DNA of 64,000 bases from Clostridia bacterium (GTDB taxonomy: Bacteria > Bacillota > Clostridia > Oscillospirales > QAKW01). Location of the stretch: positions 1-64,000 of the forward strand of contig JAGBEI010000015.1 in assembly GCA_017937065.1 (NCBI GenBank). Direction: 5' to 3'. The position numbers and the translations under genes are program-made. The notes under the pieces are model-generated. The model worked only from the letters and a program-made list of their open reading frames with translations. It searched no databases and was not told the DNA's origin. Of this stretch, positions 41,199 through 42,518 are shown piece by piece; position 1 is the stretch's first letter; each line of letters begins with the position of its first letter.

Positions 41199-41352
41199 GC
41201 ATGGTTTGGGGCAGGCACACCCAAATAAGATAGCCATGGTCAAATTTGGAACCATGGTATAATCTTGCTCTTATCGCAAAAATTAAACATCAAAAAAATA
41301 TAATTGTAATTTTTCCTAAATCACTTTCATTTTTGAAAATAAGTGGTATAAT
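41199..41352 (+). promoter_or_regulatory. AT-rich promoter region of the lipoprotein unit
   Basis: No gene here. A CCATGGT/ACCATGG inverted repeat (about 41234-41258) lies near the left end. A TATAAT at 41347-41352 with a weak -35 (TTTCAT, 16-nt spacing) would start transcription at about 41359-41360, exactly at the base of the helix annotated next. Confidence 0.5.
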
Positions 41353-41359
41353 ATTAAGT

Positions 41360-41508
41360 GCCAAACAAAGCTGAATATTGAAAGAAGGTTAACCTTTAGC
41401 TAATGGGGAGTATACCCTTTTGTATTGTTACCCAAAATGAATTACGGTAAAAACGTAATCCCACTTGGGTAGCATAAGGTTTTCCTTTCTATTCGAGCTT
41501 TGTTTGGC
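41360..41508 (+). ncRNA. Candidate structured leader RNA
   Basis: A 13-bp perfect closing helix (41360-41372 with 41496-41508) continues inward as GAATA/TATTC, GAAAG/CTTTC and AACCTT/AAGGTT, with small bulges. Inside are ACCCAA/TTGGGT (41430/41465) and the hairpin ATTACG/CGTAAT (41441/41454). The unpaired left strand 41402-41429 contains GGGGAGTATACCC. The helix begins at the predicted transcription start and is followed by an attenuator-like hairpin and the lipoprotein start. I match it to no riboswitch class. A palindromic mobile DNA element is the alternative reading. Confidence 0.5.
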
Positions 41509-41531
41509 GACAATCGGGGTTGCGTTTTTCG

Positions 41532-41569
41532 GTGTGTGCGACTTCGGTTGCACACACTTTTTATATTTT
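41532..41569 (+). terminator. Attenuator-like terminator before the lipoprotein gene
   Basis: An 11-bp stem with one G-T pair and a TTCG loop (41532-41557), followed by TTTTTATATTTT. The ribosome binding site GGAGAG starts right after it, so read-through must be controlled for the gene to be expressed. Confidence 0.7.
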
Positions 41570-41582
41570 GGAGAGAAAGAAA

Positions 41583-42518
41583 ATGAAAAGAATCGCAACA
41601 CTGTTTCTCGTGCTTGCAATGCTGTGTTCTCTTGCAGCGTGTGGTGGAGAAACAACAAACAACAATGGCGGAACAAACGGCAATAACTCCGTTAACAATT
41701 CTGACCAAACCACTTCCTCGAAGGACGAGTCAACAACAGGTGAGAAAAACGGCAAAAATGAAATCTCCTTTACCGAAATGGTTGCTGTCGATAATGACGA
41801 GTGCAGCATTAAAATTACTGGCATTGAAGCCGACAATATGTGGGGTTATACCATAAAGGCGTTGCTTGAAAACAAGTCTGCTGAGAAAACCTATATGTTT
41901 TCTGTCGAAACCGCTGCCATAAATGGAGTTCAGTGTGACCCATTCTTTGCAACCGAGGTAGCCGCAGGCAAAAAGTCCAATGAAGAAATTAGTTTTTCCG
42001 GTGATGAGTTAGAGGAAAATGGCATTACCGAGTATACAGATATTGAATTGACTTTCCGTGTATACGATAGTAATGACTGGACTGCTGATGAGGTTGCGAG
42101 AGAAACTATCCATATCTATCCTTATGGCGAGGACAAGGCTGTTAAATTCGTTAGAGAAGCACAGGCAACTGACAATGTGATTATCGACAATAATTATATC
42201 ACTGTTATTGTTACAGGCTATGAAAAAGATGACATTTTTGGCTATACCGTAAACTTGTTCTTGCTCAATAAAACTGATAAAAACGTAATGTTTAGTGTTG
42301 ATGAAGCATCCGTAAATGGTTTTATGGCAGATCCGTTTTATGCAACATCTGTTTCTGCAGGAAAGTGCACATTTAGCTCTATGGCTTGGTCTGATACCAC
42401 CTTTGAGGAAAATAGTATTACAGAGGTAGAAACAATCGAGTTCAAGCTTAGAGCATATGACGAGGATAATTGGTTAGGCGACGATTTCGCTAATGAAACA
42501 ATTACATTGAATCCGTAA
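41583..42518 (+). CDS. Lipoprotein with duplicated extracytoplasmic domain
   Basis: A 311-residue lipoprotein. The signal peptide ends in the lipobox LAAC (Cys20), then a Asn/Thr/Ser/Gly-rich linker to about 60. Two homologous domains follow, about 65-180 and 195-311. They share GYT, MFSV, NG-x3-DPFxAT-x-V-x-AGK, and EENxITE...RxYDxxxW...ETI. The domain resembles uncharacterised DUF5067/immunoglobulin-like lipoprotein modules. Codon use is AT-richer than in ispDF. It is preceded by a structured leader and attenuator, and the whole unit lies between identical hairpins, which suggests acquisition. Confidence 0.8.
   Translation: MKRIATLFLVLAMLCSLAACGGETTNNNGGTNGNNSVNNSDQTTSSKDESTTGEKNGKNEISFTEMVAVDNDECSIKITGIEADNMWGYTIKALLENKSAEKTYMFSVETAAINGVQCDPFFATEVAAGKKSNEEISFSGDELEENGITEYTDIELTFRVYDSNDWTADEVARETIHIYPYGEDKAVKFVREAQATDNVIIDNNYITVIVTGYEKDDIFGYTVNLFLLNKTDKNVMFSVDEASVNGFMADPFYATSVSAGKCTFSSMAWSDTTFEENSITEVETIEFKLRAYDEDNWLGDDFANETITLNP

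Follow-up and report, generated by a model that had tools for sequence, protein, structure and literature searches.

In the 64,000-nucleotide stretch of Clostridia bacterium DNA analyzed here (the window), the leader at about 41359-41569 on the + strand, 5' of a lipoprotein gene, very probably attenuates transcription in cis and belongs to a new RNA family. It is most likely an orphan riboswitch in which a pseudoknot would mean stop and an antiterminator would mean go. Sequence evidence supports its structure, both alternative pairings, the terminator, and the placement before genes. We infer the cis action on transcription and, likewise, the state that a signal would favor. For the signal, a small molecule, as opposed to a protein or another input, is slightly better than an even guess, and it fits the anatomy of the leader. 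Tentatively, and at somewhat less than even probability, the family may constitute a new, widespread class of clostridial riboswitches that respond to an intracellular signal and, by way of a portable promoter-sensor-terminator cassette, set expression across the accessory surface proteome.

If this is true, mostly uncultured gut-type Clostridia would use one RNA switch for hundreds of surface proteins, among them lipoproteins and BspA-like repeat proteins, and identifying its signal would show what the bacteria are sensing as they alter their surface. The conserved three-way strand choice would also be a clean test system for co-transcriptional folding. To our knowledge, abundant multi-copy RNA families absent from Rfam are rare.

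Promoter, fold, and competing strands of the leader

The following parts were assigned in the window, each given with its basis.

41344-41352, + strand: extended -10 promoter TGG-TATAAT (direct reading; position and TGn conserved in the family)
41359-41372, + strand: 5' arm of the closing helix P1, TGCCAAACAAAGCT, with the expected transcript start (fold; compensatory changes)
41373-41404, + strand: conserved A-rich junction (GAATA) and 5' side of the variable helix P2 (fold, family comparison)
41405-41417, + strand: small hairpin GGGGAGTATACCC, characteristic of long (class A) leaders (predicted fold)
41426-41435, + strand: 5' arm of helix P4, partner of 41465-41474 (MFE fold)
41441-41459, + strand: local hairpin P3 (ATTACG/CGTAAT), overlapping and competing with the pseudoknot strand (fold; family support)
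41449-41462, + strand: pseudoknot strand 1, AAAAACGTAATCCC, in the apical loop (pairing, compensatory changes)
41465-41474, + strand: 3' arm of P4 (MFE fold)
41496-41509, + strand: 3' arm of P1 (fold; compensatory changes)
41511-41529, + strand: switch strand CAATCGGGGTTGCGTTTTT (two alternative pairings, family comparison)
41532-41562, + strand: UUCG intrinsic terminator, with the stem at 41532-41557 and the U tract at 41558-41562 (reading and fold; family-wide)
41537-41550, + strand: 3' strand of the antiterminator, made of the terminator 5' arm, the loop, and the start of the 3' arm (pairing, family comparison)
41570-41576, + strand: Shine-Dalgarno (SD) sequence GGAGAGA (direct reading)
41583-42518, + strand: putative regulated gene, a 311-aa lipoprotein without a Pfam family (Pfam comparison)

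The promoter that the original prediction placed before the leader was borne out by TATAAT at 41347-41352 with TGG just 5' of it, which makes an extended -10. A good -35 was not found in this promoter; TTGAAA at 41333 lies just 8 nt from the -10. The expected +1, at about 41359, is the first base of P1, in agreement with the start that had been proposed. In the family, the extended -10 was found in 91/116 units, and the helix began 4-6 nt past it in 85/116. The perfect 13-bp helix over 149 nt proved to be real as a helix but not in its size, since P1 pairs 41359-41372 with 41496-41509 as 12 perfect Watson-Crick bp inside 14, spanning 151 nt. The segment GGGGAGTATACCC, described earlier as a purine-rich single strand, is instead predicted to form a small GGG/CCC hairpin. 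The UUCG terminator was confirmed with its stem ending at 41557, but the 1-2 nt gap before the SD was not, as a T-rich tail runs up to 41569 and abuts it. The minimum free energy of the whole leader was -88.6 kcal/mol (z -7.3), and none of 200 shuffles was as good.

The pseudoknot and the antiterminator, the parts that would carry the mechanism, were missed by the original prediction. Positions 41516-41529 of the switch strand are predicted to pair with the apical loop at 41449-41462, forming a pseudoknot with P1, and positions 41511-41524 are predicted to pair with 41537-41550 as an antiterminator. Across 117 loci, the mean energy was -17.5 kcal/mol for the pseudoknot pairing (-10.0 when shuffled), -17.9 kcal/mol for the antiterminator pairing (-8.2 when shuffled), and -16.2 kcal/mol for the terminator hairpin. 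By these nearest-neighbor models, which ignore pseudoknot geometry, the three structures are near balance. For both pairings, the partners of the same locus fitted better than partners swapped among loci, and swapped partners still paired at -14 to -16 kcal/mol. The Wilcoxon p was about 4e-20 in the pseudoknot comparison and about 1e-11 in that of the antiterminator, the loci being related and therefore not independent. When the leader in the window was folded as a growing chain without pseudoknots, the antiterminator was present while the 3' end lay at 41546-41552, and the terminator once it had reached 41556.

We propose that RNA polymerase starts at P1 and that P1 and the inner helices then form and present the apical strand. 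The switch strand, made next, would have two mutually exclusive partners. Pairing with the apical strand would close the pseudoknot with P1, so that the terminator could form and the gene would be off. Were the apical strand held in P3 instead, the switch strand could pair with the terminator 5' arm and loop once these are transcribed, and the gene would be on. A signal that stabilizes or breaks the pseudoknot would decide the outcome. In the class A leaders L032, L035, L043, L056, and L069, a GGUAU-type strand can pair with either a nearby AUACC hairpin strand or the far P2 side; lying upstream of the main switch, this may amount to a second exchange of strands.

Conservation and distribution of the family

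About 120 units were examined, and they fell into two size classes, a long one of about 157 nt from P1 to P1, which includes the leader in the window, and a short one of about 112 nt. Their common layout is an extended -10, a P1 of about 13 bp, an A-rich AATA junction, variable inner helices, an apical strand (consensus GGYAAAAAYGCAnnYUCC), the P1 3' arm, a switch strand (consensus CAAUCGGAGnnnYGCRUUUUU), and a terminator. P1 was 99.5% paired, a fraction that is partly by construction because the arms were found by complementarity; the two-sided changes in 6-7 of its 11 columns, counted at fixed positions, are not. The pseudoknot was 93-96% paired per helix, with compensations, and P3 had family support in class B and weaker support in class A. 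In MAFFT alignments, the cells of P1 and the pseudoknot together were 96.4% paired in the short class, with two-sided changes at 11 pairs (slid controls, 35-61%), and 96.8% paired in the long class, with such changes at 12 pairs (slid controls, 34-53%). The covariation score was reached by 0/500 shuffles in both classes. The original prediction had considered that homologues might lack compensatory changes, and many such changes were found. These results indicate a conserved, structured sensor domain with covariation, as expected of a riboswitch.

An intrinsic terminator lies between the promoter and the gene on the same strand, and it follows the switch strand in nearly all units. A mutually exclusive antiterminator is both predicted and conserved: 88.7% of its cells are paired in the short class and 94.6% of them in the long one. 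Its covariation stood out in the short class but was weak in class A, where pairs and pair types with two-sided changes were not more numerous than in shuffles. This modest signal is explained by the near-invariance of the UUCG and CGGAG sequences. In L167, L155, L176, and L177, which have changed terminator stems, the switch strand was altered to match. The fourth copy in the genome of the window (L166) was without a good antiterminator.

Within the same GTDB family, searching at the DNA level returned full-length relatives, together with relatives of the 3' part only that were arranged in the same way in front of unrelated genes. A model of the leader 3' part, built on sequence alone, was then applied at a cut-off of E up to 1e-4 per genome, at which about 0.04 chance matches are expected per sample. 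It matched 140/394 genomes of the same order (74/168 genera) and 92/391 genomes of a class-wide sample; in a phylum-wide sample of 398, it matched the window's own genome only. On these matches, the RNA family is confined to one class. A second model, without the terminator, matched 62/197 genomes and uncovered the fourth copy in the genome of the window (G000:C26). Genomes carried up to 13 copies, four in the case of the window's genome, and many carried a single copy.

Some leaders broke off or were interrupted within the terminator. In L143 (1636 onward) and L161 (near 1500), reverse strand, the terminator loops in different genomes were broken after GGCTTC by one and the same stretch of foreign DNA. 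The first product that this DNA goes on to encode is a large serine recombinase (Recombinase, Zn_ribbon_recom, DUF4368). This appears to be an integrative element using the leader terminator as its attachment site. At contig ends of genome G147 (L136/L168, L169, and L171), three leaders break at the same terminator point into one shared sequence, as if a multi-copy element had inserted at the terminator.

Downstream genes and alternative explanations

An ORF preceded by an SD (SD-ORF) was found within 130 nt in 109/124 units, at a median distance of 20 nt. When the distance was limited to 60 nt and the length to at least 60 aa, such an ORF was found downstream in 71/112 units vs 3/112 in the opposite direction. 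The downstream proteins were mutually unrelated and mostly secreted, lipoprotein, or BspA-like. BspA-type LRR proteins accounted for 14/101 and the copper-amine-oxidase N-terminal domain for five; zinc ribbons, SLH, lectin, collagen, and AMP-binding enzymes were also found. By a crude test, 59% of 99 downstream proteins had a signal peptide vs 9% of 66 neighboring ORFs, and a lipobox was found in 23% vs 5%, the background in both cases being small and drawn from neighboring ORFs rather than genome-wide. In L167 (451-982), L095, and L097, leader units stood in tandem with no gene between, every unit having a promoter and a terminator of its own; in L095 and L167, the SD-ORF came after the last unit only. 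Tandem duplications in L094 and L096 take in the leader plus the opening codons of the gene behind it, giving truncated gene starts.

The same attenuator may be read by a protein, such as an RNA-binding antiterminator or an RNA chaperone, instead of a small molecule. Unrelated targets with only their secreted destination in common would suit a global regulator, and the leaders have U-rich loops and few strictly conserved unpaired bases besides GGY, AATA, and CAATCGG, a smaller number than many riboswitch aptamers have. However, LoaP, the obvious candidate in Firmicutes, is unlikely, as it was below its cut-off (NF033641) in all 44 genomes, and the genome of the window has a single NusG-like gene. 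We consider a protein reader less likely than a small molecule, though worth weighing.

The start at the P1 base, the strong terminator, and the tandem units without genes between them would also be expected of a stand-alone gene for a trans-acting small RNA, with the gene behind it served by read-through. This is improbable, as the SD-ORF so often lies within 60 nt on the downstream side, which leaves no room for another promoter, and as a conserved antiterminator would be purposeless in a plain small RNA gene. It is more improbable still that the copies cross-talk, the apical or switch strand of a terminated leader pairing in trans with another copy's leader as it is made, in the manner of the antisense RNAs of plasmid attenuators. 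The two strands are nearly identical across copies and pair even when swapped, but many genomes have a single copy, and own partners fit better.

A mobile palindromic element lying here by chance, against which the original prediction had cautioned, is hardly credible: there are several copies per genome, near-identical in some tandem arrays, but the units stand in one fixed orientation just upstream of an SD-ORF and show compensatory changes, copies within one genome belong to both structural classes with little in common outside the core, and the leader was not found in viral contigs, plasmids, or phages with one exact pattern and blastn. The earlier claim of a cis-regulatory attenuator and candidate new RNA is supported as the best reading by the terminator, the alternative pairings, the compensatory changes, and the lack of an Rfam match; the ligand- or protein-sensing role proposed with it stays putative.

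Comparison with known RNA families and systems

Rfam 15 gave no match over the leader in the window at the gathering threshold and nothing notable when E was relaxed to 10, and no match covered the leader in 20 homologous loci; this agrees with the earlier statement that no known riboswitch consensus was recognized. A sub-threshold match to Gut-1 RNA (43.4 bits; gathering, 50) was found at L056:265-335, beside the leader and not over it. A search of the open-access literature with words and sequence strings found no description of the family, which may be an unnamed entry in the supplementary tables of a human-microbiome RNA survey (PMC8040213).

Type III toxin-antitoxin systems (ToxIN) likewise consist of a promoter, a structured RNA with a pseudoknot, a terminator, and then an ORF, but a PADLOC scan of 101 downstream ORFs gave no ToxN/CptN/TenpN-type toxin. 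T-box leaders are also long Firmicutes leaders with competing antiterminator and terminator. Unlike them, our leaders matched no T-box covariance model, a T-box sequence and specifier loop were not recognized by eye, and the targets are not amino-acid genes; the conserved GGY was weighed as possibly pairing with a tRNA end, but the base before it varies. In plasmid antisense attenuators of the pT181 and pIP501 type, a leader strand also chooses a pairing that frees or blocks a terminator, whereas here no antisense gene was seen for the leader and the partner strand is in cis.

The c-di-GMP riboswitches (GEMM I and II) similarly occur in many copies per genome before surface or secreted genes, but the leader has no match to their covariance models. 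Since 13/25 RNA-bearing genomes were without a GGDEF enzyme, including the window's own (G000) and, for example, G356, G385, G344, G348, G590, G638, and G658, c-di-GMP is an unlikely input. Compared with transcription-terminating riboswitches in general (preQ1, SAM, and c-di-GMP classes), the family differs in its lack of an Rfam match, its sensor core, the fusion of a conserved promoter to the sensor, and its unrelated surface-gene targets. It shares with them a 5' leader with a sensor fold and a pseudoknot, and a common switching strand that sets an antiterminator against an intrinsic terminator.
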